A stretch of DNA of 64,000 nt, taken from Bryum argenteum (taxonomy: Eukaryota > Streptophyta > Bryopsida > Bryales > Bryaceae). Below are positions 9,161-52,032 of this stretch, piece after piece. How positions within the stretch are numbered: the stretch's first letter is position 1; each line of letters opens with the position of its first letter. Below the pieces are notes generated by a model that saw only the letters and a program-made list of their open reading frames with translations, was not told the DNA's origin and did not search any database. Location: assembly GCA_037043015.1 (NCBI GenBank), contig CM073321.1, positions 25,929,510 through 25,993,509 on the forward strand, given 5' to 3'. Both the position numbers and the translations under genes were made by a program.

Positions 9161-10165
9161 AAACAAAAATAGAATGAGCTCTATAGCTTCTTATACCCTC
9201 TTATATGCCTTTTAGCATGCCCTACTGTTGAGACCACCCATACTAAGTTGTGCAAATTACGAGACATGAAGTTTGACTAGTTATCACCAAAAGACACACA
9301 TGAGATAGAAGCAAAGGGCGACATCTAATTTTGGCACGAAAAGGCGACAACAAGCCAATACATGTATGTCAGCTAAAAATGAAAATAACTATTCGAATCA
9401 AGAAATATAGCCTTATGTAGAAAGAAAAAATAAAGCAAGGTATAAATGAACATTGAATTTGGAATAAATAAGAACAGAGTGTTCATCTGGACTCTAAATT
9501 CTTTAGGCTTGTAAAGTTTTGGATGATTACAAATTGCCAAAATTTTATGATGATTACAAATTGCCAAAAGGTTGATGTAAGGTTCACATTTGGCACATCT
9601 CATACTTCATATGTTACCAATTAATTTTTAGTTTGCATCCCACATGTATGCAATAACCACAATGCATGCCAGTGTGTGGGGTTGCAAAAATGAAAGGTTT
9701 GGAACTCATTAAGAACAACGGTTTCGTTAGAAGTGCCCATTGAAATGTGCACTTTATTTTGGATTATTTCTTAATATTATAATCACAATTTTTTGAATGT
9801 ATATGCAACAAGTTAACATTTTGGTTTAGTTTCAATTCAAATAATTTTGATTTCAAATAATTCCAAAAAAAACCATGCTCAGTGTATATTTGTCTTGATT
9901 AAATTGTATTTTAACTTTTAATCTATGAATCTTCAGTGGGAGAGCAATGTGCCTCACTTAAGTAAAGCGCAAACCAAATTTCAAGTATTAAAATAAGAGA
10001 TAAATCACATGACAAACCTCCATGGTTTAAGTTTGAATATTTTAACAATCCACAAAGGGAATACTATACATGCCTTGTCCCAAACTTGTTGGAGCATACA
10101 TATATAAGTTGGAACATTATGAAATGGGGTGGGACATGTGCCTCACACAAGACCTACTCTTTCCC
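9161..10165. other. AT-rich sequence without recognised gene
   Basis: AT-rich and with no long reading frame. A short direct repeat (TGATTACAAATTGCCAAAA) occurs near 9522-9570. Nothing else supportable is seen. Confidence 0.4.
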
Positions 10166-10175
10166 TATTATATTA

Positions 10176-12563: not shown

Positions 12564-13423
12564 GGTGTTGTCGTTGGCCGGAGGGACACTCTTGGTGTCG
12601 GTAGCGGAAGCAACGGTGTTTGCGTTTTGTCAATGACACTGAATTCCCGGCTGATGTCATTGGCAACTGTGAGTATGTCCTGCAGTGTTTTTACACCGCG
12701 GATGATGATGCCCTGTTGTATCCACGGTAGCAAGCCCTTTTTGAACCATTCGCATAGGTAGTCTTCTTCTGGCCGTTGACTGAGTTTGTCTGCCAGTTGC
12801 TTGAATCTGTTGTAAAACTTGTCGACAGGTTCGTTTCTTTCTTGCTGTATGTTTCCTAAAGCTCGAAGTATTTCTGAGCTTGTTTTCAGCTTCCAGAATT
12901 TCTGCAAGAAACTACGCTCCATTTCTTCCCATGTTGGTAACAAATGCTCGGCCTCGAAATCAATGTACCAATTGATGTGGTTGCCTTGGAGCGTGGACCC
13001 GAAGATGTTCTGTAAGTCTTTGGTGCTGGTGACACCGTTGGTTCGCGCTATTACTTTAAACCTGCGTACGTGCCAATCAGGGTCACCGGAGTCATCAAAG
13101 ACTAGGTAAGGTATCTTCGGCAACTTGATGAGCCGGTCTCTTTCTCTAGATGCCATAGATGCGGCTATGGCTGGATCAATAGGTGGTAGCTGTGATGGTC
13201 CGGCCATGGTAACGATGGGCAGAACAGTTGTCGATGTTCCTACTCCTTGGAGGTAGTGCGAATTTAATAATTCGATCTTGGCATTGGTGGCGTCGTTTTT
13301 TGCCGCCAAATCTGTCATTTGTTGTTTCATCCACTGAAGCATTACTCTTGTGGTATCTTGGTCATCTTGGGGTGTGGCCTCCTCGGGTTCCGTGGTTTTC
13401 TCTGTTGCTTTTCGTGGAGGCAT
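12359..13423 (-). pseudogene. gag of the second gypsy element
   Basis: Open frame of 354 codons starting MPPRKATEKTTEPEEATPQD. The middle has the gypsy capsid signature (GSTLQGNHINWYIDFEAE, EERNEPVDKFYNRFKQLADK-like block), and the C-terminus has a zinc-knuckle-like CWECGSPHH. The frame overlaps the following pol frame by about 200 nt. Confidence 0.82.
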
Positions 13424-21442: not shown

Positions 21443-22063
21443 CAGATGTATCTTTGCAACCTACAGATGCTATTTTCACTGCTTGGAAATCAAGAATTAC
21501 GCATTCTGACGAGGAAAGCATTGAAGGTATAGACGCTATTATTACAATACCCAAGAAGCCGGTCGAAATCATCAAGGCTTCTTTGCGGGAGCTTGCTTCA
21601 TCTTCTCTAGAGTAGACTTCTAGTATATAGTATTTATTATGGAAGTAGGTGTGTTAGTACTTAAACTTGGTATTGACATATATATTACTTTGATATTTAG
21701 TATATAGAGTATTATATTTTTGTACGATTTACTATCCATATTCAATATATTTATTTTGTATAAGAAGATTGTTTAAGTTGACTCGATCATTATTATTAAT
21801 TGAAAGAAAATTATCCTTTGTTGGTAGGTTTATCTTCACATGTATCGTATCAAATAGATGTATGGTAGTAACTTTTTTGAAGATAAACATATTTTCTAAG
21901 ATTCAAGAGGTCTCATATCATTTCCAAATATAATGAAAATTAGTAAATTCAAAGTACATATGCCTACGGTAAAACCCCTCTAAATGTTGATTTTGGCTTC
22001 ATCCGTTGTCTTGTTTTAATTTGGGAGATCAAAATGTTCCAAATATAACGAATACGGGGTTAT
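21443..22063 (+). mobile_element. 3' end fragment of the same family as the 32.2-36.9 kb element
   Basis: Plus-strand sequence here closely matches the reverse complement of about 32200-32820. It encodes the same protein C-terminus (PTDAIFTAWKSRI then EGIDAIITIPKKPVEIIKA, stop near 21613). The same AT-rich 3' region follows, ending in the same terminal octamer GGGGTTAT at 22056-22063. The left part of the element is missing. Similarity is roughly 85-90% by eye. Beyond 22063 the two copies have unrelated neighbours, so this marks the element end. Confidence 0.8.
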
Positions 22064-31059: not shown

Positions 31060-32199
31060 GCTCCCGCTCTTGTTCTTGGATCCTCTTTCTTCAATATTCA
31101 AATTGTGAATCAACCGCTTCAAGCATCTCCTCCTTTCCCCCTTCAATCTCCCTCATCCCCCCTCATTTCCTCTCATTCCCACTCGGTTCTTCCTATTTCT
31201 CATTCCCAAATGAAAATGATTCTCATAGTCATGGGCCTTTTGCCAAGAGCTGTGACCATGATAAATGAAAAATGAAATTTTAAGTGCATTGGATACTCTT
31301 GTGGTGTAATATGGATTTAGATCGGTACAAGTTTAATCACAATTTTAAAATAAAATTCTTAACATTCTCAAAATTCTCAACATAAAATTCTCATCAAATA
31401 TTGGTTTCAATAGTACCCTCAGTAATTGGTTGATTAGAATGTCCGCAAATGATTATTCTTTTTGACTTAAAATATTTACCTTCATATGGTGGTCACTCAT
31501 TTTTTCTCCAAACATATAATATGTCATATATCACCCTTTAATTTGGTAAGCAACTATTTCTCTCAATGCTTACTAGGCTATATGCACTAATCCCTTACTC
31601 TTAATTGTATTAGAAGGCGTTATTACTTAACCCGCCAAAAATTTTAAAATCCTCCACCCTTTCAATTTAACCAATGTTTTAATGTTATGAGGCAATAAAC
31701 TCATTGCAAGGATAATCTATTAGCATACATATACTCGGATATTGTATATGGAGAAGTTGTAATTTATTAAAGACTCCACTGATCTAGGAAGAAACTAAAA
31801 TTTGTTCTTGAATGTAATGTTAGAACATGAGGTGAAGTTTTGGTGCAAAGATGGTATCTTACATAGATGCTAGAAATTGACTGGCTGGATTAAATGCTAA
31901 GATTGTAGCTATTGAATCGTTAGATGCATTAAAGTGTTTCATGCATTGAAGAGGTTGACGCTCTTTAAATGAATTCACATATTAACAATTATTATAAATA
32001 GTTAGGCACAATATGACTTGTTAAAATATACATCATTCTAAAAAATATATACCATTGATGCCTACAAAGAGGACGAGGAACTCACGCCATCCTTCCTCCT
32101 ATTCATTATTATCCATTTAGACCTCTCTTGTCCATTTCTCATGAATTGAATGATCATGAAATAGGAATTATAGGACCCACGATCCGAAATTACTACCCT
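31060..32199. other. AT-rich sequence without recognised gene
   Basis: After a C/T-rich stretch (31110-31200) the sequence is AT-rich with no long frame. Confidence 0.4.
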
Positions 32200-32646
32200 A
32201 TAACCCCGTGTTCGTTATATTTGGAGCATTTTAATCTCCCAAATTAAAACGAGACAACGGATGAAGCAAACATCAACATTTAGAGGGGTTTCACCGTAGG
32301 CATATGTACTATGAATTTACTAATTTCCATTATATTTGGAGATGATATGAGACCTCTTGAATCTTAGACAATATGTTTATCTTAAAAAAAGTTTCAACCA
32401 TACATATATTTGATACAATATATGTCAAGATTAACATACCAACAAAGGATAATTTTCTTTCAATTGATAATAATGATGGAGTCAACTTTACAATCTTATT
32501 ATACACAATAAATATATTGAGTATGAATAGTAAATCGTACAAAAATATAATACTCTATATACTAAATATCAAAGTAACATATATGTGAATACCAAGTTTA
32601 AGTACTAACATACCTACTTCCATAATAAATACTATATACTAGAAGA

Positions 32647-35046
32647 CTACTCTTGAGAAGATGAAGCAAGCTCCCGCAAAAAAGCCTTGATGATTTCGAC
32701 CTGCTTCTTGGGTTTTGTAATAATTGCGTCTATACCTTCACTGCTTTCCTCTTCAGAAAGCGTAATTCTTGATTTCCAAGCAGTGAAAATAGCATCTGTA
32801 GGTTGCGAAGATACATCTACACCTTTCTCAACAGTCCAACAAAGCTTTCTATTCGTATCCCAATCTGTGTAATACTTCCGAATTTCTTTGGAGCGTGACA
32901 TTCGACGGAAGAACTGGATGTCGACCGTATTGGGTAGGTTTGGGTTTGAATTTGGATCAGACATTGCTCGCCCGAGCCAGAAAGGCCGGCCATCGGTGCC
33001 GCATGGACGTAGTGCAACAAAATAACCCTTATAAAAGTCACGTCCAACTCGAAATAAAGGAGCAAGACGATCACGTCTCTGGCCAACAAAATGATCATCG
33101 TCGTCCTACTCTTTGTGCACATTCCCTTCTAAAGTAAACTCATCTTCCATAGCATGTGCAAGTTGAGTTGACGGCCAAAATCCATGTTGTCACGGTAATA
33201 GTTCCTCATAACTTGACGGAATCTATTTTTGCGACGATGCAAGTACATCCATGGGTATACAAAGGGCATCTTTAACCCCGCTCTAGTAATATGAAAGAGG
33301 CTCGTACAATCTCCGCGATTCAATTGACTCACGTGATAATTGTTCCCAAGAATCGACAAAGCCTGAAATCCCTTTCACTACCTCAGGCAAATGGCGCATC
33401 TTCTTTAGACGCATAGCATCCGGTTCACCACGTGGCCATAATGATTTGCCTTCAGAATCCTCCTTCCACAATTTAATACCAGCATTATCACCTCTAGGAA
33501 GCCATTCCTCGTCGTGACAGAAAATCTTGTACTTCATTACGGGGCATCCACTTGGATCCATGTAAAATTTGAATTGATGCGCTTTTGTATGCCCCACCAA
33601 TGCTTCAACGCCGACTAACATCCACTCTTCAATGAATTTCTTGAAGTTCGGAACCTCTTGAACGAGGTGTGGAATAACTAGAAGTTTTCCGATCCTCATA
33701 AAAGATTTCATGAGAAGAGGGATGGTAGGATAATCCTCCTTTCGCAACGCCATGCTCGAACGCCCAAATAACGCATCTATGTCATCATGATTGTGACCAA
33801 CAAGCATAAAATTAACATATATCTCTCGGATCACTCGTTTTGCTACCAAAAGAGACCAGAAATTGAAGACGAATCTATTCTTATTATCACTCAAGGCATT
33901 ATCCATTTGGACATTCAAAATTGGAGGCAAAGGCTTTGCAGGAATCGGGCCTAATGGATCCATACACACCACTGAACCTTGTAAAAGAGCAGTATACAGT
34001 GGATGCAATGGAGGCTCTGTAAAGAGTTGTCTGGACTTAGGTGCAGCTTCCAGAGCCCACAAAAGTTTTGCAAACGAGCGAACCGTATAATCGGCATCAT
34101 GTGAGTAAACATCTAGTTCATAATGAGCGTATCGCTGGTCTACATGACCATGAGCAAGAATTCCCGGAACTGCAAGAGGTAACTTCATGAGTCCGTCTAA
34201 GTTCTTCACCTTATGAGACAAGGCAGGTGATGTTGTCTTTGAATGGTCCATCTTGTCATGCATAATGGTCAAAACATCTTGAGGCGACTCCTTAGATCTA
34301 AAGCGGTTGAGGTAGTATAAGTCCCTGTGCGCATATGCGGAATCTAAGTGCACATTCAATTTCCTCGACCGTATAAGAGATGACTGTGTCCCAGGAAGAG
34401 TGAGCTTCATCAGTGATTGTAACTCATCACATTTAGAGCAACGCGTAAAATTGTCCCCCAATCTTTTGGCATAGTATTCAGGATAGCTCAGGCGCCGAAT
34501 CTTACTAAGGTTTGAAGTTGACACTGGCGGAAGCTCACACTCTTCCAAGTACTGATCAAGAAGAGGAGTTTGGTCTTTCTACTTAAAACTTGAAGGAAGT
34601 ACCTTGGCAACAACCTTCTCCCCTGATGGAAGGCTCCGGGACTTGTGAGGCATGTGATCGGCGTGTCTATCAAGTATTGCCCCTAAAACGGCAGAAGCAA
34701 CAATCGTATGCCTCCTAGGCTTTTGCAAGCCTGTGTTCTCGTGTAACTGGGCCTCATGACCATCAGCTGCACTCTGGAAGTTGCGATAAAACGTACCGTT
34801 GCTCACGCCCATGATTTTCATCCATGAAATTGGACAAACATCAATACCCTCTAGAGTGACTACATTTCGCCTTTCAGCATTTCTGTGGAACTGCTTATGG
34901 ATATCGAGTTTGACGTGATTCTCAAACTGCACAGTTGTCTTGTGGTACATGCGACACCTGAGAACCTTAATCTTCTCCCTTGGGTATAGTTGAACACAGT
35001 TGTGCTTACAGCAGGTATTACATGCGACCGCATTGATTGACTCCAT
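32647..35046 (-). pseudogene. DUF7869-like protein of about 800 codons, with internal stops
   Basis: One frame runs from ATG 35046 to the stop at 32647. The N-terminus has a cysteine-rich start (NTCCKHNCVQLYPREKIKVL), then NVVTLEGIDVCPISWMKIMG and VSNGTFYRN, the block that usually precedes the core in this family. The central part has NFTRCSKCDELQSLMKLTLP and then the core LNVQMDNALSDNKNRFVFNF and FMLVGHNHDDIDALFGRSSM. The D.....NKN and VGH.HDDID motifs are what I know as DUF7869, likely an RNase H-like fold. The C-terminus is GYFVALRPCGTDGRPFWLGR and then PTDAIFTAWKSRI. Five in-frame stops occur: TAG at 34581, 33285, 33225 and 33108, and TGA at 33192. The longest open stretch is about 430 codons. 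The function is probably transposase-like; this is inference. Confidence 0.7.
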
Positions 35047-35054
35047 TGACTACA

Positions 35055-35510
35055 TCAGAAACTGGGCTTTGCGCGAAACTGGAGTAGACTCATTCCTTGA
35101 AGAATTATCATACAATCGAGTTCGAGATGACCCGTGCCGCCGACTACGTTCCCGGACGCATCTGTTGTGAAATCTTGCTGACTATGGTCAAAAAGACTAA
35201 CACCGTCTAGGAGGACTTGTTGAATGGGCCACGACTTGAAGGAGTATATCCAGTTGTCTGGATCCTCGACCGCAACAAACAAAGTTGAAACTTGCACCAC
35301 AACTCGGGAATCACCGAGTAGGCCATTACAATCAGGCACAGCGCCAGATCGTAGGTTTTGAAGTAAACCCTCAGCGATTCTGAGTCCTTCGGAATCAAGT
35401 ATTGCAACAGTCCTGACTGTCCAGAGCCGTCGAAGAACAACTTGAGCAGCAAGTAAACCACGATTTATAGGTGCATCGATGAAAGTGTCATCGTCTGAAG
35501 AGAAATCCAT
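35055..35510 (-). CDS. Unknown 151-aa protein at the 5' end of the element
   Basis: Minus-strand frame from ATG 35510 to a stop at 35055, starting MDFSSDDDTFIDAPINRGLL and containing LLAAQVVLRRLWTVRTVAIL and VVVQVSTLFVAVEDPDNWIY. It ends 8 bp before the ATG of the long frame and is in a different frame. It could be a separate small protein translated from the same transcript, or a first exon. The array of palindromes begins 86 bp upstream of its ATG, which supports this as the first coding unit. No family is recognised. Confidence 0.5.
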   Translation of the reverse strand: MDFSSDDDTFIDAPINRGLLAAQVVLRRLWTVRTVAILDSEGLRIAEGLLQNLRSGAVPDCNGLLGDSRVVVQVSTLFVAVEDPDNWIYSFKSWPIQQVLLDGVSLFDHSQQDFTTDASGNVVGGTGHLELDCMIILQGMSLLQFRAKPSF

Positions 35511-35595
35511 CTTGTAATATATCTTGACAAGGTTAAAAACTATTTGAACACAAACTTGGTCACAACTTCAGGACAATATGAGAAATGATTAGATG

Positions 35596-36219
35596 CAGTT
35601 TAGCTCGAGTCGAGCTAAACTGACTAAGAGAATAAATTCTACAATATAGCTCGGATCGAGCTAAACTGCACTAAGTATTCGATCAATCAGTTTAGCTCGA
35701 CTCGAGCTAGACTGTCTTACGAATAGCGCCTTGCAGTAAGGTTGGACTCAAGCAGTAGTGGAAGTAAAGTTCCGCGCTTTGGATTAGCTTAACACCAGCT
35801 AAATAGGTCGACCCGATACATTCTACAGTTTAGCTCGAGTCGTGCTAAACTGACCAACCGAACATAGACTGCAGTTTAGCTCAAGTTGAGCTAAACTCTC
35901 CAACTGAACACATACTGCAGTTTAGCTCGAGTCGAGCTAAACTGTCAAACCGAACACATACTGCAGTTTAGCGCGAGTCGAGCTAAACTGCAGAAACATA
36001 CATTCCATACAGTTTAGCTCAACTCGAGCTAAACTGCAGATACCTACATGAGATATCGTTTAGCTCGACTCGAGCTAAACTGTATAAACATACATTGCAT
36101 ACAGTTTAGCTCGACTCGAGCTAAACTGCAAAAACATGTATGGAATACAGTTTAGCTCGACTCGAGCTAAACTGCAGATATATGCATCTATACAGTTTAG
36201 CTTGAGTCGAGCTAAACTG
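35596..36219. repeat. 46-bp-period array of 27-bp palindromes (14 units)
   Basis: Each unit is a 27-bp odd palindrome: arm CAGTTTAGCTCGA, one central base (G or C), then the reverse-complement arm. A 19-bp spacer follows. Unit starts are 35596, 35642, 35688, 35734 (decayed), 35780 (decayed), 35826, 35872, 35918, 35964, 36010, 36056, 36102, 36148 and 36193, a step of 46 bp throughout except the last, which is 45. Several units are perfect. Spacers are not unique; many share AACATACAT-like text, so this is a tandem repeat with a protected palindrome, not a CRISPR array. Confidence 0.95.
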
Positions 36220-36882
36220 TGTGACAAGATAGAAGACCAGTCCCTAAAATTACGGCGGTTTTCACGAGATTCATCTAGGATTCCGAATTCCGTTACAACC
36301 AGAGCTCTTCCATTCTAACGTCACACGCTCGAATCCAAATAAACTCTTGTCCCAACGTAAACATCAAATCAAAATAAGATGTCAACGACAACGACACCGA
36401 ATGCACAAAGGTTAAGTAGATGCTTTTAGAATACAACCACTGAATAGACATTATCAACTACTACTACTCAAGATAAGGAGAAAACTATGAAGAATAATTA
36501 AACAAACAATGCGAGAAGCTGTGCAAAGCAAATGGAACGACAAACAATCATGCATAAATGCAATTGAGAAACACGTACGCGAAAGTAGAGAGCGAGCTGA
36601 AGGAAGCGCGGAGAACTCAAATACGTCGACGGAGTTCAGCACACTGAGAGACTGAAAAAAGAATCATTCCGTCCTGGATTTTGAAGGTCATTGCGTAGCG
36701 CAATGCCGTTTTCGCGCTATCCGAGCAATAGGGAATGGGAGGGAATTGACTTTTGGATAGTTGAAAATTGGCGGGAACTGTAGTCTCGAGAGATGAAAAT
36801 GGGCGCGAACTGAAGTGTCAACAGTTAATTATGGGCGGGAAGAAAAGGGTCGACATTTGAAAATTGGCGGGATTGGGGTTAT
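36220..36882. other. Non-coding 5' end of the DUF7869-like element
   Basis: No convincing reading frame. Near the end, short related blocks GTTGAAAATTGGCGGGAA, AATGGGCGCGAACTG, TATGGGCGGGAAG and AAATTGGCGGGATT recur (36760-36875), possibly subterminal motifs. It ends in GGGGTTAT. Confidence 0.45.
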
Positions 36883-36930
36883 AGGGTTTAGGATTTAGGG
36901 TTTAGGGTTAAGGGTCTAGGGTTTTGGATT
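36883..36930. repeat. Telomere-like tract flanking the element
   Basis: AGGGTTTAGGATTTAGGG and further TTTAGGG-type units lie directly outside the proposed element end. Confidence 0.65.
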
Positions 36931-36939
36931 TTTGATTAC

Positions 36940-38770
36940 AGGTGTGTGATAATTGTTATTGGTCAAACAAATGTTAATCTTTATACACCTAGTGTGAGGT
37001 ATACTATGTTAGCAAACACTCACTGACAAAATAAAATTTTAGTTAAATTTCTTGGAAGCAATACACTGGATACGACTTCTAATTTCATATTTTTGTGAAT
37101 CGAGTATCCTTAACCTGAAACCTTTCTTTCTAAATAAAGTTTCTAAACAATGAATTTGATTCAATATTTACCTTCAGGTGAAGTCTTATTAAGTATTAAG
37201 CTATTATCTTATCCATAATTTTAATACTACTAAATTTTTTGTGTGTATGCTAAAAATTCATAATTAAATGTTGATTATTATACACTTCAAACTAATTCTA
37301 TCATTTCCTATTTCTGGTTAAAAATTGTACGAGTAAATATAATTTTTATTAAATTGTGTTTGCTTATTTGTACATACGTAATATATATGATAATTATATA
37401 CAATTTAATATAATATATGATATTTATTACATATTATATTATATACTATGTATCTATAAATGAAAAATATATCTTTCAAATTGTAAATCCATACAATGTA
37501 AATATAATCTTAGTATATTATTTAGAGTATCAAATTGCTTGAGCTATAAAAAGTAGTGATGAAATCAAATATTTTAACTTTAAATTGTAAAGAAATCTTC
37601 AAAGTAATGTACGATGAAAAGTTTATACAATTTGACAAGTAAATTTGTGAACCCTGTTAAATACACTTTATGAAGGAAATTTTGATGCACATAAAATGTT
37701 ATATTTAAATTTAATGTCAAAGTATACTTGCTCAATGGTATATATGTAATTTAATTTCTTTTAACATAAAGCTTACCAAAATAAGATTACTTTTAAACAT
37801 TTTAATTTGATTTGTAGATGTTTAACCATACAATTGGATTTCTTATTGAAATGTTCAAAATCAATTGCAACTATGGACATCTTTTTGTTCCAAATAAGCA
37901 TTTATCAAATACAATCAATACATTCATTGAATTTTAATGTTGAAATTCTATTTTGCAAATTTTAGTAATCTTTAAATTACCTTATAACTATCGTCTCCCA
38001 ATGCAATTCAATGTCTTTAAGCATAGAGTATAGTGTAAGAACTATTATAAGCTTTGATCCTCCAAACGCGATCAGTATCTAGTGGTTTGTATTAAATTTT
38101 AGTACAAAGCATTTTGTACAATGTCAAACAGAACAAATGATTGTAGAGTATGCAGTAGAGCTGAATATTTTTTTATTGAATGAACAGATTTTGTGTTTGA
38201 AATGAACAATATTTTTTGTAGACGTTGTCTATATACACCGTCATCTACATCTGTACAGGTGATTGTAAACATTGCTAGTAGAGTAAAGTCAGGTGTTGAT
38301 ATTAGTTATGTAGTTTTAATGTACATTAATTGGGCGTTTATTCAAAAATATGAGCACTGTGCCTGTTACAAAACAAACAACAACAATATTTGTTGCGCCA
38401 TTTACAAATTCTTCTTTTCAGCACATATTTTACGTGATTTACATTATCGAGATTCACAAATATGAGTATTGAAATTATTTTTACTTTTGAATAACCTTTA
38501 AAAGTGATGAACTTCATTGACGTATTTATGTTTTAAACGCTCGGGGGGTGCACTAGGTGGTAGAAGTAGAAAAGTATGTGCGAAATAATGGAGGGTGTCA
38601 AATAAATCTTGGAGCTAAAAATTACAATTAGTTTAGATCTACAATAGCATATCAAAATATGCATTGGATGTCTTTATAACTAATATAGAGTGATATATAA
38701 TTCTACCAAAGTAGAAAGAAGTAGAAATAGTATAGTGTATGGATTATTCAGAATTTATACTAGAACGTCG
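36940..38770. other. AT-rich sequence without recognised gene
   Basis: Very AT-rich. A minus/plus frame near 38.19-38.46 kb is short and not family-like. Confidence 0.4.
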
Positions 38771-39117
38771 AATAATGGCGCACTGCCAAAAATGGAGTTC
38801 TAATAATCTTCAGTCAGAGGTACATAATAGCTCAATTTTTAGCACAAGAAATCTACAGGGATGTCACAAGTACAAGCAATTTTCGTGCATGGGGAAAATT
38901 AGAAGAAAGATAGAGCAGATGGAATCATCATTTTTGGATTCTTGGACAATGAGTTATGAATTTTTTAAGTTATAAATATAGGTGTTCCTATAATGGTGCC
39001 CTAAAGTGATACCCTATAATCTCTGTAGTGAGTACATGATACTATTGCATGGGGAAGCTATTATGTGCCTTTGACTGAAGATTACTAGAGCTCCATTTTT
39101 GGCACTGCGCCATTATT
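38771..39117. mobile_element. MITE with about 65-bp inverted ends
   Basis: Left end AATAATGGCGCACTGCCAAA; the right end is its near reverse complement (...GCACTGCGCCATTATT). The inverted similarity extends through TAATCTTCAGTCA to GGTACATAATAGC. Length is about 347 bp and no coding is present. If the termini are taken as ATGGCGCA, the flanking TA could be the target duplication of a Tc1/mariner-like family. Related copies lie at 55.04-55.33 kb and 59.01-59.10 kb. Confidence 0.8.
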
Positions 39118-39383
39118 AAACACTACCATAATCACTTGCTTTCCATCTGAAAAATAAAATTTCAAAGTAATATAGCATATGATATATAGATAGAAATCAA
39201 AAATTACAATTAATCCATGCTCTTACTTTAATGACCCAAAGTATCAAATTATGTAATCATAGGGTGCCAAAAATTAGAGAAAAGGAAAATAATAGCCCCC
39301 ATTTAAATACTCCATGATCGCACCTATATCCTTATTTTTTGTCAAGGAGTCCACCCCCCCCCCCGTTTAAACGTGACTGTTCC

Positions 39384-39998
39384 TTAACCCTTAAGCGGGC
39401 CGAATGTCGAAAAACGACATTTTGGATGACACCAACTTTGGAGAGCCATAACTTCTTCATCCGGACTCCGTTTTGGACGAAATCACTTGGGTTGGGTCCC
39501 AAATCAAGTCTAGTTCATGTAATGAAAATCTCAGACCCATACAATGAAGTATGAATTAATGGCATGCATTTCAGTGACAGCAGCCTAGTTTTAGACATTT
39601 TTTCCTTTGTAAAATTTAGGGCAGTTTTCACCATTGCAGGGCCATAATTTGCACAAAGAAATTTTTCTCATGGTTTTTTTTTGTTCAAGGATGCTACTGA
39701 GATGAAGGTGAACAACATTCTAATTGGTGACTTTTTCATTGCAATAAGTCTAATGGTAGCATTTTCACTTTAAAGTGAAAATGATGAAATTATGTGATCA
39801 TTTTTGAGTATTAATACATTATGATCTCGCAATCTATGAAGCCTCATGACTCAAAATTTGACCCACACGATGTTCAATATGTCTACGACAAGATTGTACG
39901 GTTGAGATTTGGATAACACACTTTTACCTCCACCTATGACAATGCTTTTGAGGATGTGTTCATTTTACTACAAATGAGTCAAACCATTTAGGGGTTAA
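39384..39998. mobile_element. Candidate non-autonomous DNA transposon (TTAACCC ends)
   Basis: Begins TTAACCCTTAAG and ends TTTAGGGGTTAA, a short inverted terminal match. The inner part (39655-39930) is related in inverse orientation to 8880-9145. No coding. Confidence 0.4.
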
Positions 39999-39999
39999 T

Positions 40000-41690
40000 A
40001 ATTTATTCTGAATTTTGAATTCTAAAATAATATTCGAATTAATAATTCAGTTATTAACTTTTGTTGTCAAATACTCTATTTATAGAAGTATCAAAAATGT
40101 AAAAAATATCATATTTATTCATTATTTATATATAAACTAATATATTCAACAATAACTCTATGCAATATCTGCTTATTCCTAAAAAACAAGTGTATTCCAT
40201 ATGTATTAATAATCTATTCTTAACCTTCTCTCAAATAAGCTATTATGAAATAGTGTATTTATTATTGTCCTATACCTGAATGACATATCTACAAAATACT
40301 ATATTTATTGGATTCTCTATTTATTAGTCTTTTAATGTCAATAAAAATATTAATAGAATTTTCCAGATAATCTATTTATTGACCTACTATTTTCAAATAC
40401 TATATTCATAAAATCATGTATTTATTGGCGTATCAATTCACTAAATTATATATATAATTATATAATTATATATATAATTAGTTATATTAATATATTTAGT
40501 AAATAGCCTTTTCAATAAGTTTATTTCTATGTGTATTCAATAATTTGTTTATTAACAGTTATCTTTCAAAATACTATATTTATAAGACATTGTATCTTGT
40601 GCTGATCAATTTATTATATGTATATTTATTTATTTACATTCACATATTCATCAAAAGTCTATAAATTATCCACAGATTCACAAATTAAATGTGTATTAAA
40701 TAATCACTTCATTAATACTTATATTATTTAAAAAAATATTCATTGAAGATATTGTTTAGTAACGACTAATACCAAAATAACTTATTTACCAAAAACTTAG
40801 ATTTATTTTTTATTTTTTATTTTTTATTTTTTATTTTTTATTTATATATTATTTTTTATCTTTTTGACATATAAAAGAGGTATTATGATAGATAGTGATC
40901 ATTTTGATTTCTAATTTTTTAAAAAATCACATCAATGTTTTATTAGCAACTCTTGCCTTACAATACAAATCGCATAGATCTTTTCATACTTTACCCCAAT
41001 GTGACTAGAGTACAAGAAGAATATTCATGTTTTTAATAACTTAGCGTATGTACTTATGGTTATATTTATTTATACTAAAAAACTATTATATGTACTTGTA
41101 AATATCCATCATCTGAAAATAGTACATACTTTAGAAGTAGAAGAAATTAATATGTATAAGACAATTTATGGTACAAATAAAGTATATTTGTTTTACTCTG
41201 ATGATCAAAAAATTACACATCAAAGTAAAGAGCCTCATATAGAATTATTTTTACTCTTAAATGGTTTTTCATGCATGTATACTGTAGGGGATAAAAACTT
41301 CTTCTTGGCCTTGAACTCCTCCATTGTAGAACCATGGCAACTTTGGAGGTCGGATTCAATTTGCGCCACCTCAATCAATTCTCCCACGGTAGAACTGCTG
41401 ATCTCGCTCTCCAAAATCGGACTTAGGTCTTTCCATTGCAACAAATTACTTTGTCTCTGCCTGCATCTCACTCAGAAAAAACGCTTAAGAGAAGGAGTTT
41501 ACTGAGAGCTACTTCCAAATATTTGAGTTTCTCGATGACGTAGAAAAGGGAAATGATACATTGGGTTTGAGCTTGACGTTTTGGTCACACTAAAACATCC
41601 ATTCACAGAATGACTAAGGATTGATTGATGAAACCACTAAGAACAACTATGCAGAGATCACTAGATGATTGCCTATCATTTACTAGGCTT
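40000..41690. other. AT-rich sequence, no supported gene
   Basis: Includes a period-7 low-complexity run of ATTTTTT at about 40800-40845. Frames at 41.06-41.5 kb look spurious, although 41235-41471 on the minus strand is somewhat protein-like. Confidence 0.4.
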
Positions 41691-41696
41691 TGGCGT

Positions 41697-42255
41697 TTAT
41701 TCAGTTGTACGAACGTGGCAATATTTCTTGAGAGACTGGCCACCGAGCGCTTTAGGAAGAAGTAGCGCATGTTGCTGTTGCATGCCATATTTTCCCTTCA
41801 AGGAATGAGTCTCTCCATCCTCAATTCTGACTTCAAGTTTGTACTTCCTCTTGCTCGACTCTGCCAATGGTGTCATATGAAGCTTATCATAGAGCTCCGT
41901 GACTTCGTGATGAAGAAGATGGAGTTCAACGGTGTGGGGCACATATCCCCGATAAAATGTCGACTCCTTGTAGATTTCCCTCAACAATACCACCTTTACT
42001 AGGGGATCTAACTTGAAATCATCTGATCGCCAAGACCTCTCATAATCACCCTTCTCCAAATCTACCGAAAGACCAATGTTGTGCTTGGTGAGGAGATGCT
42101 GAGAAAAGAGGTTTTTCACGCCAACTTGGTGGCACTCTGGCATCGGACAAGCAATCGGCGCAAAAGAACACGTCTTTTTTATGTGCGGAATTATTAAGGT
42201 CGTTGAACTTGATGAATTCTGTGCAACCCAAAGTGACAAATTTACAGGTCGCCAA
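41697..42255 (-). pseudogene. SINA/SIAH-like zinc-finger protein fragment
   Basis: The minus-strand start (42255) reads ATCKFVTLGCTEFIKFNDLN. After a one-base frame slip in an A-run near 42170-42176 it continues with KKTCSFAPIACPMPECHQVG and KNLFSQHLLTKHNIG. C..GC, H....C, CP...C and H....H spacing matches the SINA/SIAH zinc finger of plant E3 ubiquitin ligases. The rest (about 130 residues, ending KALGGQSLKKYCHVRTTE) is collinear but not clearly matched to the substrate-binding domain. RING and upstream parts were not found. It is a decayed host gene piece or a captured fragment. Confidence 0.55.
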
Positions 42256-42736
42256 TGTAGAGTACTTTAGAGTAGTAGATTTAGTTACAATTTAGTCACA
42301 AAGTTTCATTAAACACCTAGACAAATACTTAGAACCCCAATTCCGTTAAAATGGCACTATGCCATGTGCCATTTTGTCACACTAGATCTTACATTTGTGC
42401 TCATATAAAATGGTATATTCTGTAATATCACAATTTTTTTTGTAATATCACTTCTTTATATACATTGTCACTCATTTTTCATAATATCACCTTAAAATTC
42501 TGTTATATCACATGGTTTTTGAGCTACAGTTCAGAAAGTTCAGGTATGCCATTTTACCGGAATAATGCCATTTTAACGGAATCGGGGTTTTAGTCAAAAT
42601 TTGCACAAAACGTAGAGATAAATATAGTCAAATCGTAGTCAAAACTTAGCCAAGAATTAGTTAAAAAAATTGTAAACATACTTAAAACGTAACAAATTTT
42701 CTAGTAATAATCAGTAAATTAAAAAAAATTGCCATG

Positions 42737-42824
42737 CCCATGATCATGTGCATGGGCATGGTCATGTACATGGCCATGTATGTTTGTATGTATGTATGAC
42801 CATGCCGATGCACATGATCATGGG
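42737..42824. repeat. CATG-rich inverted repeat (29-bp arms, 30-bp spacer)
   Basis: Left arm starts CCCATGATCATGTGCATGGG (42737-42765). The right arm (42796-42824) is its reverse complement with one mismatch. The inner 24 bp match the arm of the perfect palindrome at 8493-8552. Confidence 0.85.
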
Positions 42825-42839
42825 AATGAAAAAGTTTTT

Positions 42840-43870
42840 CGTGATGGGATCCCATCCCACCACCGCCGCCTTTTCCACGCAGGTCCCATCCCCCCTACTT
42901 ACCTGCCATTGCCAGTTTGCCACGCGCATTTCCCGCATTTCTCCCTTTTCTCTTGCGCCTTGGCATTTCTGATTTTGCTGTAGTTTGCTTACCTCGGAGT
43001 TGCTGCAGTTTGCTTACCTCCGCATATTTGTGTTTTTGAGCTGTGTTGTCGTGTTCCGCGGGCTTTCGGAGATAAGGGTTTTTGTCGTTTCTGTTGGTTT
43101 TGCTGAGGAGGAGGATTGGGAGGTTGAGTTCGTGCCATTTCGGTCGAGGCGCTGCGAAGAGCGGCGAGGACGAGGTCTGAGGCGGAGAGCATTGATTCAC
43201 TGCAAGCAGGAGTACTTCGGCGAGTCCTGAGGAGCGGCGCCCGGAGCTTCTGCAAGACGGACTTGTGCTCGCCGGTCCTGCCCGCTTAGCGGAGCTTCTA
43301 CTTGGAGGAGGTGACTTCGCGCTTTTGCTGTGATTGCTGCTGCGGTGCTGCTGCGAGTTCGTTGCGTTTGCTTCTGCAAGTTTGGTATATATTGGAAGTT
43401 CCGTTTCGTGCTGCGGTGCTGCTTCGAGTTCGGTGCTGCTGCTGCTGCGAGTTCATCGCCGGTGCGTCTACGTACATCGCCGGTACGCTAGGTCCAAACT
43501 CTTTCTTACCTGTGCACTAGGCTTTAGTTGTCCAATTTCGCAGCCACAACTCAAGGGTTTGCTGGTATACATATTGAGGATGTTGTTGCTGCTGGTATTG
43601 GCCCGGGCACCCCTATGGAGGGTAGAATTGCTGCTGCTGTGATAAGCTTTGTCGCGCTGCTAGATTGTCGCGCCCGTGTGATGAGCTTTGTCGCGCTGCT
43701 GGATTGTCGCACCTTCTGTTTAATTCCTCTTCTGTTGATGTTCTGCCTCGTTGCTTGCTGCTTGGTGTGTTTGCGGACCTCGTTCTCGTAGTCGTCTTAG
43801 CTCACTGCATTGTACAGTGAATTGTCGCGCTACTGCTATATGGACATATGCACGTTCTTGACAATCTTCA
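42840..43870. other. GC-rich region without recognised gene
   Basis: GC-rich, CTG/CTGC-repeat-bearing sequence (43320-43460). Several overlapping frames exist on both strands but none shows family motifs. It may be a promoter or 5' leader. Confidence 0.35.
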
Positions 43871-44345: not shown

Positions 44346-46436
44346 AGAAGAGGAGGAAGCCCTAATGCGCTAGAGAGACAACAAGCATGGGCAAAGGATG
44401 TGAAAAAAAGGATGTACACTTTTCCAAATTTGTGACGGCGGCCATGATTGTCAGAACATTTGTAACTATATTCGAAAATTAGACTGGCATACCATGTCAG
44501 AGACTATCATATTCGACAGCCCACGAGCCGTCATAGTAGTTGTTACAAATGATGATCAACTGTGCTAATTTGGTCACGAGGCGGCTTAGAAATTGTGTTT
44601 AAATAGGAGTCGGACGACGGTATGGTCCTTTTCATTGTTTGTTTAGTTGGTGTGGGTTATGGATTTGAGGCGGCCCAATTTGTATCCGCTTGTGGATCCT
44701 TGTTCTGCAAAACTTTGAATTTTGTTGTGTGTTTAGTGTTTAGAATAGTATCGTATTGACTAAGAATAAAGACCGGATGGCTCAAACCGGCCAGTTAGTA
44801 GTTCCTTTGTATGGTAGCCAACCCGGTTGACCTTAGTGGATTGTTAAGGTTACCGGAAATTTGGTAATCCGGTTTTTCCGAGACTGTCAGTAGTACAGTC
44901 TGGATAGGCCCCTACATCCGGAGTAGTAGCCGGTGTACTGTCAGGGTAGACGGAATGGCGGCGCAACCGGAAATATCTGGATTGCTGCTTTTAAGTTCTG
45001 CCACCAACAAATACTCCCACTCCACGAGTGATTTGTACGCCCGGAGTGCTCCTTCACCCCGCGCGCCCAAATTTCACCTCCCATTTTGAATTCACAGCGT
45101 CCGGTTCCAGTTCCGGAGAGTAGGGTTTGCGCGGAAATAGTTTGGAGAGAGAGCGGAGTTCTAAGGGAGAGCAAGAACTTCAAAATAAGCGCAAGTATTG
45201 CCGCACGATGCCGAGGAAGCGAGCTGACTCGCTATGGAGGTTGGAGAAACCGATCCCGATCAAGACGGTGAAACCGGATTCCCGCGGAATCGGAAGCATG
45301 AGGAGCAGCTGCGGGAGGACCTCGTCCGGATGGGCTGCGAGGGATTCTCCAAGGCCCTTGGGATCTTGTCGACGAGAAGATCGTCAAGGAAGTGGTCAGC
45401 AAGGATTGGCCGGAGGAGCACCGGAATCACAAGCATCGTGGCAAACCGAAGAGCTGGACGCCAAAGCAATGGCAGGCAACCTACTGGTTTTCCGACTCGG
45501 TGGTGGACTACAACATGAAGAAGGGCCATGTGCGGCTGAAGAGTCGATTCAACCGGCCGCTCAACAACAAGGATGGATTTAAATTCGATCAATGCAAGAG
45601 TGCAGGAGAGCAGCGACAACTTCGGTTTCTGCTGCCTATTCTCAGTCCAGATAAGCCGACTTCCTACACGATCAAGCTGATGAAGTCTATCGTGTGGAAC
45701 TACGACGGGAAGAGGGTGATTGGATTGCACCACATGATTAACAAAGTCGTGCAGAAGGAGGTGGTCAATATCAGCAACAAGAAGGGCTGTCCGTCGACGC
45801 CCTACCTCTAACACTTGTGCGCCCGGTATGGTATTCTTACTCAACTGGAAGTGGCAGGATGTGAGAGGCTACAGCCTTTGGAGGTCGCTCCTACCCATGT
45901 TGACCTAACTTCAGAATCCAAAGAGGAGGATCCGGATAGGGCAGTCATCGACTTAGAAGGATCTCCTAAGTGTGTCAACCGGACTCCGCAGCTGAAGAAG
46001 AAGGCCAATTTGGATCGAGCTGGACCTAGCAGTGCACCCCGGAGGTCTACCCCACGGAAGCAGACCGGACGAAATCCAGCGACCCGGTCGCCGTAAGCGA
46101 TTCCATCCATCTTCACGCCTTACGGAAATGAGGAGGAGGAATCAAAGGAAGAAGAAGAAGAGGAGGAAGAGGAAGAGGTGACTCCTATGATCCGGAGAAG
46201 GACGCGTGCACAACAACGGGCAACCAAAGCCGTAGCCAAGGCCGGAGGGGATCAATCTGAAGATGACAATTAGGAAGAGGACGATCTGGAAGGAGAGGAT
46301 TCAGATGAGGAGCAAGAAAGAGGAACTCGATGGGAGACCCCCGCCCAACCAGGAACGGGTCCTGGAAGGAAGAACAAGAGGAAGTTCACTCCCCGGTTGG
46401 CGAGGGTGGGGACTCCTAAGTCGACGCCTACAAAGG

Positions 46437-46842
46437 TGTTGAAGATTAGATTGCTCGTAGTTACTAAGGGTAACTAGAGTTGATTACAATATGTAGAGAG
46501 GGTTGGATGAATAGAGTCTTATCGTATATGGAGAGGGTTGGATGAATAGAGTCTTATTGTATAGGGAGAGGGCTTGTCCACAAGAGCCTTATCGTGTGTA
46601 GAGAATGATGGACCACTAGAGCCTTATCAAATGTAGAGAGAAAAGGTCCTCTAGTGGTCTATCCTTTGTAGAGTGATCTTGATCACTCAAACCTTATCTT
46701 TGTTGTAGCACCTAGTGCCTTCACTTGGATATATAAGTAAGTGCTTGGAATGAGTGAGCATCTCATTCAAGCATTCTTTGCTCTACTACTTGTAAGCTTT
46801 GAGTGTGTTGTATTCTCTCTCTCCATCTATTGAATCTCAATA
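46437..46842 (+). repeat. 5' LTR of the copia element
   Basis: 406 bp starting TGTTGAAG and ending CTCAATA. TATA-like GATATATAAG lies near 46719-46728. Internal tandem repeat of a GAGAGGGTTGGATGAATAGA unit. Confidence 0.95.
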
Positions 46843-47576
46843 GGTTTTGGGCCCACTATTCTTGTAGTGAGGTTGAGTTTGAGTACTTTTGGAGGCTTGG
46901 AGAGGTCAAGGAGGTGTTGCATGCACATGTAGGACTCATTTGCACTACTTGGAGTCTCTTGGAGACTTGGAGGTGCACTTGGAGTCATTTGGAGATGTTT
47001 GCAACCATTTTGAAGGAGGTTTGGAGCATTGGAGGCAATAGAAGCAATTTGGAGGTGTTGGAGGTGACTCAAACACTTGTAAGATTGTATGCTTGTTGTT
47101 TGAGTCCTCTTTAGACATTGAAGGTGCTTCTTTGCATTAAGGGCTCTTAAATCCATTGTTTGAAGTGTTTTGAGCTTAGGAGTGTGTGTTGTAATGTTTA
47201 CTTGAGTGCACTTAGAGTTGAGAGGGCCGAATCTAGCATTTGGAGTGCATATGTGCACACATTGGGCTGATTTTAGCATTTGAGGTGCAAAAGTAGGTGT
47301 TTTGAGACTCCTAAGATTAGATTTGAGTGATTTGTGGATCTACAAGCTTTGTTGACATAGTTTGAGAGTTGATCTAGTGTAAAGAGTGCAAAAGTGCTCA
47401 TTTGCATGCATTGAGGGTTGATTTCATTGCTTTGAAGTGCAACCACACCTTGTGTGTGTGTAAGAGATCAAGATATTCTATTTGGAGGTCAAATAGCTTG
47501 AAGAAGATCAAATTTAAGTAGAAGCAAGTGTATCTTGCTTGTTTGAGTATTGTAGGGGCAACATTGGAGCTTTGCC

Positions 47577-48341
47577 ATGGCTTCTTTGGAAGGTGAGAGT
47601 GTTAAAGTGCTTGAAAGGTTCAATGGCACCAACTTCAACTTGTGGAAGTTCAAGATGAACTTGGCACTTTCTTCCATTGACTTGTGGGAGATTGTTGAAG
47701 GCACGGAGGAGGCTCGACCATCCGAAACAAGTGAGAAGGACAAGAAGGACTACCAAAAGAGGGTGCGTAAGGCGATGTCCATGATTGGGCTCAACTTGGT
47801 TGAGGCGCAACTTGCGCACATCAAGAGTTGCAAGGATACGGCAGAAGCATAGAGCGTGCTTTGTAACATCCACGAGACAAGAAGCTTGTCCAACATACTC
47901 TATTTGAGGCGCAAGTTCTTCACAATCAAGATGGAGGAAGGGACGGACTTGTTGGAGCACATCAACAACAGCAAGACACTTGCGGATCAACTCGCATGCT
48001 TGGATGTGCCCACGAGGGAGGATGACATTGTCATGACATTACTTAATAGTTTGCCACCTTCATTTGAGAGTTTGATCACGGCATTGGAGACTTTAAAACT
48101 TGCTGACCTTAAGATGGAATTTGTTGTGTGAAGGTTGATGCATGAAGTGTTTAAGAGGAAGGAGAAGGGTGCTCCAAGTGGTGACGTAGCGTTGGTGGCG
48201 GCCCAAAACAAAGGGAGGATGCAAAATGGCCCAAGAATGTGCTACAATTGTAGCAAACCGGGCCACATTGCAAGGTATTGCTTTCGAAACAACAAGAAAG
48301 AGAAGGAGAGTGCCAATCTTGCAAGCAACAACGACAATTAG
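47577..48341 (+). pseudogene. gag region of the copia element
   Basis: Starts MASLEGESVKVLERFNGTNF and contains the copia capsid domain (UBN2-like), ending with the zinc knuckle CYNCSKPGHIARYC near 48240-48282. Fossil. Confidence 0.85.
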
Positions 48342-48386
48342 GCGGATTATGCGTTTCTAAGCGCCGTTGTTGCAAGGAAAGAGGAG

Positions 48387-49547
48387 ATGGAGGTGAAGCA
48401 TGCCTTTGCAATCAATGATGGAGATGGGAAGACCATGGCCAAGTGGGTCATGGATTCGGGAGCAACTAAGCACATGTCACCCCATGGATCATCGTTCCAA
48501 ACATATGAGGTAATATCACCACCACAAAATGTGCACTTGGGAGATGATAGCATTGTGCATGCGGTTGGAGTTGGCAAAATTGTTGAGGAGGTGATGGTGA
48601 TGGGAGTGAAGCACAAGATCAACATGAAGGAGGTGCTCTACATCCCTAAGTTCAAGAGAAATTTGATTTCCGTGGTAAAACTTGCTCTCAACGGTTTAAA
48701 AGTGGAGGTTGATGATGATGCATGCATTAGAAGAGATGTCAACAGAAAGATGATTGCTAGATTGCCAAGAGTAGGGAGTTTGTATGAAATTCCCTTCTCC
48801 ATGCATGAAATGGCCAATGTGGCACACCAAACGCCACAATTTGCCCCTTTGGAGCTATGGCATAGACGCCTTGGGCATTTCAATGTGAAGAGTGTCAAGG
48901 TGCTTCAAAGCATGGTGAATGGCATGCAAATCAAGGATGGAGCATCGAATTTGGCGGTTTGTGAGGGGTGCGTTGAAGGCAAGCTCTCAAAGACTCCATT
49001 TCCAAGTGAGGGAGGTCAACGTGCAAGCAAGCCTTTGGAGTTAGTCCACTCCGATGTGTGTGGTCCATTTAAAACCATTTCTATGGGCGGTTGCTTGTAC
49101 TTTGTCACTTTTTTTGATGACTTCTGTAGGAAGGTATGGGTGTATGTGTTGAAGTCCAAGGGAGAGGTCTTTGCCAAGTTTGTGGAGTTCGAGGCCCTTG
49201 TGGAGAAGCAATCGGAGCACAAGATCAAGGCGTTTTGGTTCGACAATGGAGGGGAGTTCATTTCCAAGGCCTTTGAACGCTTCTTGTAAGCACATGGCAT
49301 TGAGAGACAACTATCAACACCATACACACCACAACAAAATGGAGTGGCGGAGAGAGCAAATCGCACCATTCTAGAGATGGCAAGGAGCATGCTACACCAC
49401 CAAAACCTCAACAAGAACCTTTGGGCGGAAGCGGTGGTTAGAGCGGTGTACACACGCAATAGGTGCCCAACTAGTGCACTTGTTGGTAAGACACCCAAAG
49501 AGGCATGGAGTGGTAAGAAGCCTTTTGTGACACACATGCGTGTGTAG
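48387..49547 (+). pseudogene. Protease and integrase region of the copia element
   Basis: The protease motif KWVMDSGATKHMSPH lies near 48440. The integrase zinc part (LWHRRLGHFN, CEGCVEGKLSKTPF) and catalytic core (LELVHSDVCGPF, FWFDNGGEFISKAF) follow. Protease and integrase before RT is diagnostic of Ty1/copia. Fossil. Confidence 0.9.
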
Positions 49548-49947
49548 GGCTGTGTTGCTTATGCAAAGGTGCCAAATGAAAAGAGGACTAAACTTGATGC
49601 AAAGGGCGCAAAGTGTGTGTGTTGTTTGGTTATTGTGAAGGAACCAAGGCTTAAAGGTTGATGTGTTTGGAGTCCAAGAAGATCCTCAAGTGTCGTGATG
49701 TGGTAGTTGTGGGGGATGCTATTTGTGGAGATGCAAATGTGGAGATGCATCCAAGTGGGAGTTTGAAGCCATCTATGGTGATTTTGGTGCATACACCTCT
49801 AATTTCAGCGCCCATTGTACAAGAAGCACAAGTTGGAGAGGAGTTTAAAGGTGTGCAAAATCCACAAGAGAAAGAAGAGGAGGAGGTAGTGGAAGAAAGC
49901 TAGGTCCACACGAGGAGATTGATGAAGGGCAACGTGCACAAGGCTTA

Positions 49948-51639
49948 ATGTATTCAAGAAGGGAGAGGAGGCCTCCGAGTGAGTTGTGGTTGAATCACGT
50001 TCTTCCACCCACTAACGAGGTAGAACGTGCAAATGTGGCTTCTTTTGAGGATACTTTGAGTTTGGGTGATGCTTTGCAAAGTGTGGATGCAAGCAACTGG
50101 GAGTTGGCGATGCAAGAGGAGTATACATCTCTAATGGCCAATGGCACATGGGATTTGGCCCCATAGCCAAAAGGCCACAAGAGTGTTGGTTGCAAGTGGG
50201 TGTTTAGGACCAAGAGGGATGCACAAGGCAACGTGGTGCGCTACAAGGCACGGTTGGTGGCGAGGGGCTTCTCTCAAGTGGAAGGTGTGGATTTCCATGA
50301 GACCTTTGCACCCGTGGCAAAGTTTACCACCATTCGTTGCATGTTGGCGATTGGGGCAGCCATGGACTTGGAGATTCACCAAATGGATGTCAAGACGGCG
50401 TTTTTGAATGGTGAGTTGGAGGAGGACATCTACATGGACCAGTCCCTTGGTTTTGTGGAGGAGGGCACTCAACACCTTGTTTGCAAGCTCAAGAAGTCGT
50501 TGTATGGGCTCAAGCAATCACCAAGGGCGTGGTACCAAAGGACTGACATGTTTTTCACCAAAGAAGGCTTCTTTAGAAGCCATGCGGATCACTCCTTGTA
50601 TGTGAAGCAAACAAGAGAGTTGTTGTTGATTGTAATCATCCATGTGGATGATTTGATAATCTTGGCTAGTGATGATGCGGTTTTGGGGTGGTTGAAGGCC
50701 AAGCTTGAGAAGGAGTTTGAGATGAGTGATCTTGGGCCTTTGGAGTTTTGCCTTGGTGTTGGGTTTGAATGGAATCAAAGCGCACTCACCATCACCATGA
50801 GCCAAGACAAATACATTGAGGAGGTGCTCAAGCGCTTCAACATGGAGGAGTGCAAGCCGATTGATACGCCGCTTGATGTAAAGGGGTTGTTGTTGAAGCT
50901 TTTGGATGAGGAGTTTACTGAGTTTGAAGAGGAGATGAAGGCTATTCCATACAAGGCTGCGGTGAGGTCGTTGATGTATGCAATGGTGGCCACAAGGGCT
51001 GACCTTGCATTTGTGGTGAGCATGGTAAGCCAATTCATGGCAAAGGCTGGTCCCCAACATTGGATGGCGGTTAAACGCATCTTGAGGTACTTGAAAGGCA
51101 CCATTGACTACAGATAGTGCCTTGGTGATAACAACCTTGATTTGAAGGGAAATTGTGATGCGGATTGGGCGGGTGATGTGAATGAGCGCCGGTCCACGAC
51201 GGGGTATGTGTTCTTTGTAGGATATGGTGCAATCTTGTGGAATTGTAAGAGGCAACCCACAATAGCGGTGTCTACTACGGACGCGGAGTACATGGCAACT
51301 AGCCATTGTTTGAAGGAGGTGTTGTGGCTACGGCAACTATTGGAGGATGTTGGGTTTGTGCAAGCGGAGGCCACAAGGATCATGTGTGACAACCAAGGGT
51401 GCATTACGCTTGCAAAGGACTCCAAACACCACTCTCGTACGAAGCACATAGATGTGCAACATCACTTCATTCGGGAGAAGTTAGAGGATGGAGGGGTGAG
51501 CTTGTGGTATTGCCCAACGGAGGACATGGTGGCGGATGTGTTGACGAAGGCGCTTGCTAGGGTGAAGAACGAGAAGCTAACAAAGGCGATGGGATTGCAA
51601 GGTGGTAACTACTCGCAAAGTCGGAGTGTTGAAGCTTAG
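49948..51639 (+). pseudogene. Reverse transcriptase and RNase H region of the copia element
   Basis: Contains the copia RT blocks ARGFSQVEGVDFHETFAPVA, QMDVKTAFLNGELEEDIYM and LLIVIIHVDDLIILASDD (YVDD-equivalent VDD). RNase H follows with GNCDADWAGDVNERRSTTGY, YCPTEDMVADVLTKAL and TKHIDVQHHFIRE. Fossil. Confidence 0.9.
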
Positions 51640-52032
51640 ATTGTTCGTAGTTACTAAGGGTAACTAGAGTTGATTACAATATGTAGAGAGGGTTGGATGA
51701 ATAGAGTCTTATCGTATATGGAGAGGGTTGGATGAATAGAGTCTTATTGTATAGGGAGAGGGCTTGTCCACAAGAGCCTTATCGTGTGTAGAGAATGATG
51801 GACCACTAGAGCCTTATCAAATGTAGAGAGAAAAGGTCCTCTAGTGGTCTATCCTTTGTAGAGTGATCTTGATCACTCAAACCTTATCTTTGTTGTAGCA
51901 CCTAGTGCCTTCACTTGGATATATAAGTAAGTGCTTGGAATGAGTGAGCATCTCATTCAAGCATTCTTTGCTCTACTACTTGTAAGCTTTGAGTGTGTTG
52001 TATTCTCTCTCTCCATCTATTGAATCTCAATA
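51627..52032 (+). repeat. 3' LTR of the copia element
   Basis: 406 bp, matching the 5' LTR except for two substitutions in the first 20 bases. Confidence 0.95.

Follow-up and report, generated by a model that had tools for sequence, protein, structure and literature searches.

A palindrome-bearing remnant of a giant DUF7869 transposon in the moss Bryum argenteum

The window analysed here is a stretch of 64,000 nucleotides from the moss Bryum argenteum (GenBank assembly GCA_037043015.1, contig CM073321.1), which lies at 25.93-25.99 Mb of a 44.1-Mb contig called C1 below. It contains a dead, 5′-truncated remnant of a giant cut-and-paste moss transposon, in which a broken gene for a DUF7869 protein, the predicted transposase, lies beside a regular array of 27-bp palindromes. 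On balance we favour the reading that these palindromes are dimer sites private to one transposon family, serving an anti-silencing regulator that the element itself would encode. The features of the remnant are listed here (handles such as L047 denote other loci in the genome).

32202..42895 (right limit approximate), minus strand: what is left of the giant element, namely its 3′ part, the half with gene 2 (below) missing (blastn of L047-L051 and L064 against the window)
32202..32224, minus strand: 3′ terminal inverted repeat, reading AACCCCGTGTTCGTTATATTTGG on the plus strand (homology of L048, L049 and L051 stops here; 23-mer search)
32198..32201, no strand: CTAT, presumed surviving half of a 4-bp target duplication, judged from the duplications of other copies
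32665..35510, minus strand: broken gene for the DUF7869 protein, a predicted transposase, with one frameshift and at least four in-frame stops
33283..34578, minus strand: open piece of 431 aa with the PF25273 (DUF7869) core, E 5.6e-40
35596..36219, no strand: array of 27-bp palindromes, 14 steps of which 12 are recognisable, 5′ of the gene in its presumed promoter
36875..36924, minus strand: conserved internal CCCTAAA run ending in CCCTATAACCCC, not an end of the element (alignment with L047-L050)

The limits of the remnant come from comparison with 10-kb stretches around five other copies of its family (family 1) and around one distant copy. An earlier note on this DNA had proposed a transposon of about 4.7 kb with inverted ends at 32200 and 36882. 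Both end sequences are present (ATAACCCC at 32200 and GGGGTTAT at 36875), and the first marks a real end, as homology to L048, L049 and L051 ceases at 32202. The second, however, is internal: the surroundings of 36882 are conserved in L047-L050 and homology runs on upstream of it (L051, over the 10 kb compared, is without this stretch). Since complete copies, moreover, measure 17.6-20.3 kb, the 4.7-kb element is rejected. We also note that the CCCTAAA run, which L047-L050 share, resembles a plant telomere, inside the element and upstream of the array.

At the true 3′ end the sequence is AACCCC[GA]TATTCGTTATATTTGG, the facing version is AACC[CT]C[AG]TATTCGTTATATTGGG (104 exact sites), and the pattern AACC[CT]C[AG]TATTCGTTATATT[TG]GG occurs at both ends in paired orientation. 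The 11 end pairs examined at sequence level (the end lists hold further pairs) lie 17.6-20.3 kb apart, eight of them 17.6-18.6 kb; an example of a full copy is C1:1945581-1964140 (18.56 kb), represented by L063 and L064. Ten of these 11 copies are flanked by an identical 4-bp duplication (CTAT, AAAC, ACTT, AAGT, TTGT, TATT, GAAA, AACA, CTTT and TTCT), and the single copy without matching flanks has CTAT against GTGT. Other listed end pairs are shorter or longer, as deletions and nested insertions would give. With its paired AACCCC...GGGGTT ends and 4-bp duplication the element is almost certainly a terminal inverted repeat (TIR), cut-and-paste DNA transposon, so the earlier note had its class right and its length wrong. 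For the window's own CTAT (32198..32201) no partner flank was found, and tblastn of the gene-2 pieces against the 64-kb window gave no match at E ≤ 0.01.

The DUF7869 gene had been described as an 800-codon open frame. It is interrupted by the frameshift, near 35170, and by the in-frame stops, and its longest piece is 431 aa from stop to stop; the DUF7869 protein of the element has about 960 aa. The NKN and VGHNHDDID motifs are both present in the window gene, as had been claimed, and the window piece scores 137 bits against the PF25273 profile (curated cut-off 26), which all 43 aligned relatives match. The named moss relatives, from Ceratodon purpureus and Physcomitrium patens, share 35-70% identity with the L048 protein over the part searched. 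Residues D417, D542 and D584 are invariant, with 42 residues from D542 to D584, and the predicted model and its structural comparison (VIA rows 1-29) point to an RNase H fold, the nuclease-like fold for which a check had been suggested, its best rows being Tc1/mariner proteins (Mos1 and SETMAR). Foldseek alone gave nothing significant with the predicted core, and a PDB sequence search with the transposase found no match. The N-terminal half has, by eye in the consensus, a Cys-rich and a helix-turn-helix-like stretch. Judging from this model, the DUF7869 protein is very probably a DDD transposase with an RNase H fold.

At least 103 DUF7869 matches occur in the genome searched (258.8 Mb, 25 contigs), some copies yielding two of them, and 80 lie on C1, which makes up 17% of the genome. 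The genome searches scored part of their candidates (40 of 395, 97 of 1930 for DUF7869, 88 of 2050, and 150 of 721 for the gene-2 piece). C1, enriched in this way, may be a sex chromosome; of the 16 gene-2 relatives in Ceratodon, 12 bear UG or VG locus names. Among viral contigs the DUF7869 profile gave six stretches, which all failed tblastn and left no relative, and the palindrome core was found zero times.

The left half of the complete element is occupied by gene 2, which has predicted introns and lies on the opposite strand, head-to-head with the DUF7869 gene (gene 1). Its 16 Ceratodon relatives are 1291-1587 aa long, and 10 of them carry a C-terminal NIF/FCP1-type phosphatase domain in precomputed annotation; the last large gene-2 piece of L063 matches NIF/FCP1 at E 8e-15. 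Pfam, PHROGs and PDB sequence searches of gene 2 found nothing beyond this domain, which was also the only one above cut-off in Pfam scans of the gene-2 pieces and three relatives. An AlphaFold model of the Physcomitrium relative P0138 was unusable (pLDDT 39.6). A ParB-like ‘INGQHSVAA’ and degenerate DNA methyltransferase-like stretches were picked out by eye, but nothing in them was confirmed and they are not claimed. A genome search with one gene-2 piece gave at least 151 matches, 64 of which entered an orientation test: the first 51 listed, unselected, and 13 picked by eye, all positive. Only the unselected set is usable as a proportion, and in it 32 of the 51 are head-to-head with a listed DUF7869 copy and none has the other orientation, the remaining 19 being without a listed copy in the vicinity. 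The median distance between the two genes is 12.8 kb over the 45 positives (the 32 unselected and the 13 chosen by eye).

The palindrome array of the window stands up well to closer analysis. Its register comprises 14 positions in steps of 45-46 bp from 35596 to 36219, the number, spacing and limits that the earlier note had given, and 12 of them fit CAGTTTAGCTCGANTCGAGCTAAACTG with at most three mismatches, a match that 100 dinucleotide shuffles never produced. Positions 4 (35734; 10 mismatches) and 5 (35780; 9 mismatches) are decayed. The array begins 86 bp upstream of the ATG (35510) of a 151-aa frame, also as claimed. Pairwise identity is 0.90 among the palindromes versus 0.40 among the 19-bp spacers, in agreement with the claim that the former are kept while the latter drift. 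Neighbouring spacers are more alike (0.55) than spacers generally, so tandem duplication does occur in the array, and the 46-bp register is due to it. Such a period and such spacers would also be expected of a neutral, satellite-like tandem repeat produced by unequal exchange within the element. We consider that origin very improbable, however, as tandem duplication leaves unexplained that the arms are exact while the spacers randomise: although the spacers are near-random, 60 of 120 units from nine sequences are perfect palindromes. Furthermore, one palindrome is common to several spacings, lone copies lie in predicted introns, and both arms are altered together between families (below). Across the 120 units the arm columns hold 1.15-1.93 bits and the flanks 0.0-0.4 (one column 0.78). 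This set includes nine units from the distant copy L052, and its compensated-change count, 21 of 40, mixes both families.

A stand-alone satellite, which the earlier note had named as the outcome that would count against it, is likewise rejected. The array is linked to family-1 genes and ends, and of the 33 distinct family-1 copies, counting that of the window, 32 have it. The genome as a whole has 5,032 palindrome sites with at most three mismatches and none for a reversed control. Of 100 listed palindromes, 80 have a listed family-1 gene or end no more than 20 kb away (15% for random positions), and the other 20 have neither within that distance. The pattern listings give about 100 places, and the exact sites of L063 are absent from the genome listing; because the listings are incomplete, the lack of a listed site near a gene means little.

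In the full copy L063/L064 the palindromes lie upstream of gene 2 (19 units, 7265-8303) and upstream of gene 1 (4877-5367 of L064), with a further 8-unit array of period ~57 and single sites. All but one of the 29 L063 sites are outside coding-like runs; the exception, the lone site 5616, overlaps such a run in the alignment, yet it is inside a predicted intron, and GTAAGT...AG splice motifs flank both this site and the period-57 array. In P0139, P0140 and P0141 the read-through ends include a palindrome in translated form right after the same exon, which suggests, as far as sequence can tell, that the intronic palindrome is kept in relatives. This layout bears on two other roles for the sites. 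TnpA of En/Spm binds subterminal motifs, and the palindromes might similarly be the transposase's own internal sites for assembly of the transposition complex. They are element-linked, family-specific and palindromic like dimer sites, and the Cys-rich and helix-turn-helix-like stretches seen by eye in the DUF7869 protein could suit a binder; yet the first L063 site is 2.5 kb inside the element, the last L064 site is 3.4 kb from its end, and the sites are gene-upstream and intronic, so that we think this role unlikely. Equally unlikely in our estimation is the opposite regulatory sign, in which a repressor encoded by the element would use the sites as operators and so keep its copy number down. 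Sites upstream of both genes would suit such operators, but sites in predicted introns and a 19-unit array are unusual for an operator, and a repressor protein was not identified.

The distant copy L052, the sole family-2 copy read, is 62% identical to family 1 in the core protein and has a different palindrome, ATTCAACTCGANTCGAGTTGAAT, in which TTTAGCTCGA is replaced by TTCAACTCGA and the opposite arm is altered to match. This type-2 palindrome has 1,257 sites genome-wide (at most one mismatch; control 0). At the same threshold, 45 family-1 loci, which represent 33 distinct copies, contain 316 type-1 sites with overlaps counted twice (189 in 30 loci), type 1 being present in 44 of the 45, and no type-2 site; L052 contains 15 type-2 sites and one type-1-like site. 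On C1, 57 of 100 listed type-1 sites are upstream of a family-1 gene and at most 16 kb from it, and near family 2 none is upstream and three are downstream; of 59 listed type-2 sites, 36 have this position relative to a family-2 gene and none is that close to a family-1 gene, these cross-family zeros resting on listed sites. In 2000 circular shifts the maximum was 28 (observed 57) for type 1 and 32 (observed 36) for type 2, high values that arise because sites and genes cluster. Incomplete lists place an exact type-1 site upstream of 10 of 28 listed family-1 genes, and a type-2 site is listed upstream of all seven listed family-2 genes. These patterns suggest that the DNA of a family is marked and controlled by that family itself. 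They also bear on whether the sites bind a host regulator, such as a transcription factor exploited by the element. Sites upstream of genes would fit that idea, but a host factor common to both families should tend to favour a single motif, and the palindromes of the two families of this genome differ and do not overlap upstream of genes among listed sites, which makes a host factor quite improbable.

Because the arms are conserved, the spacers free, the sites upstream of genes or in predicted introns, and the change between families symmetric, the palindromes are probably family-private homodimer sites. The protein that binds them would be a homodimer supplied by the family itself, the first candidate being gene 2 and the second the N-terminal half of the DUF7869 protein. 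Once bound, it would coat the element's own non-coding DNA and keep the element's promoters active against host silencing, as VANC does for VANDAL. This self-encoded activator or anti-silencer is favoured because the site layout matches that of VANDAL21, although we put activation or anti-silencing as the purpose of the palindromes at slightly below even odds. A bolder version, which we regard as doubtful, is that DUF7869 would constitute an unrecognised DDD superfamily, that an element-encoded dimer with an FCP1-type domain, akin to an RNA polymerase II phosphatase, would read the palindromic code of each family in a second origin of anti-silencing, and that the elements would have accumulated on C1, possibly a sex chromosome.

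The window contains two further features with ties to this element.

42333..42589, no strand: miniature inverted-repeat transposable element (MITE) of 257 bp with AACCCC...GGGGTT ends and a TTAG/TTAG duplication, inside the remnant
21444..22063, plus strand: piece of the 3′ end of another copy, with 93% identity to 32818-32200

The 23-bp end of the MITE has 1345 + 1361 sites genome-wide (at most two mismatches). It is possibly moved by the DUF7869 transposase, as it shares its ends and duplication length with the giant element. Other mobile DNA surrounds the remnant. A Copia-type LTR retrotransposon at 46436-52032, which matches Pol_BBD, rve and RVT_2, has 407-bp direct repeats that are 99.5% identical and is a recent insertion. 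Gypsy-type pieces (aspartyl protease, RVT_1, Retrotrans_gag and Ty3_capsid) lie at 5575-13423, near a direct repeat of ~465 bp (1656-2119 and 7297-7763; 98% identical), and a 355-aa frame at 59804-60871 carries DUF4218, a domain typical of CACTA elements.

As to its kind, the element is a TIR transposon; its new parts are the transposase lineage and the family-private palindromes. A full-text literature search for DUF7869 found no paper and the 10-20 best-ranked literature matches gave no description of such an element, both within a coverage that leaves subscription papers, Repbase and preprints mostly outside; the passages of PMC7466625 consulted describe none either. Mos1 has a DDD triad, and mariner elements are 1-2 kb long with a TA duplication. 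Tc1/mariner proteins give the best structural rows for the predicted model and share its DDD arrangement, but no sequence match was found, the duplication here is 4 bp rather than TA, and the element is ~18 kb long. Lanisha elements reportedly came from Ceratodon purpureus, a moss that holds relatives of both genes described here. As PMC12730594 cites and describes it, Lanisha (Maumus, McDaniel and Carey 2020, Repbase Reports) has been put forward as a superfamily of cut-and-paste elements, within a CMCT clade whose members carry, between the second D and the last acidic residue, the motifs C(2)C and H(3-4)H, and have mostly 5′-CA..TG-3′ termini and target duplications of 2-5 bp. Our element is also a cut-and-paste DNA transposon, and its 4 bp fall within that range; in contrast, the 42 residues from D542 to D584 hold no conserved C(2)C in the 43-sequence alignment, and the termini are AACCCC..GGGGTT. 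It may be the same as Lanisha.

VANDAL transposons, from which the proposed function is borrowed, are Mutator-like. According to the sections of the two sources consulted, the motifs that VANC21 binds in VANDAL21 are repeated in tandem, in introns as well as 5′ of the transposase (PMC5735166), and VANC6 uses motifs different from those of VANC21 (PMC5735166, PMC10398659). The moss element is likewise a multi-gene plant DNA transposon whose tandem motifs lie outside coding sequence, both upstream of the predicted transposase gene and within predicted introns of an accessory gene, and its motifs too differ between related families. It departs from VANDALs in that its predicted transposase is a DUF7869 protein and its motif a 27-bp palindrome instead of a 9-bp direct motif; the VANC domains DUF1985 and DUF287 (named in the consulted part of PMC5735166) were absent from the Pfam scans of the gene-2 pieces and three relatives. 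The best reading of this comparison is that the sites here would work like VANC/VANDAL anti-silencing motifs in an unrelated transposon. The analysis gives DUF7869 a likely function and adds to known elements a giant multi-gene DNA transposon of mosses with a phosphatase-type domain. Self-encoded, sequence-specific control of a transposon through non-coding motifs is known in detail from the VANDALs of Arabidopsis; an independent case, in which the motif is symmetric and one genome harbours two families whose motifs changed in step on both arms, would suit tests of how regulator and address code co-evolve. If the reading is true, sequence-specific anti-silencing encoded by a transposon for itself would have arisen a second time, independently, in plants.

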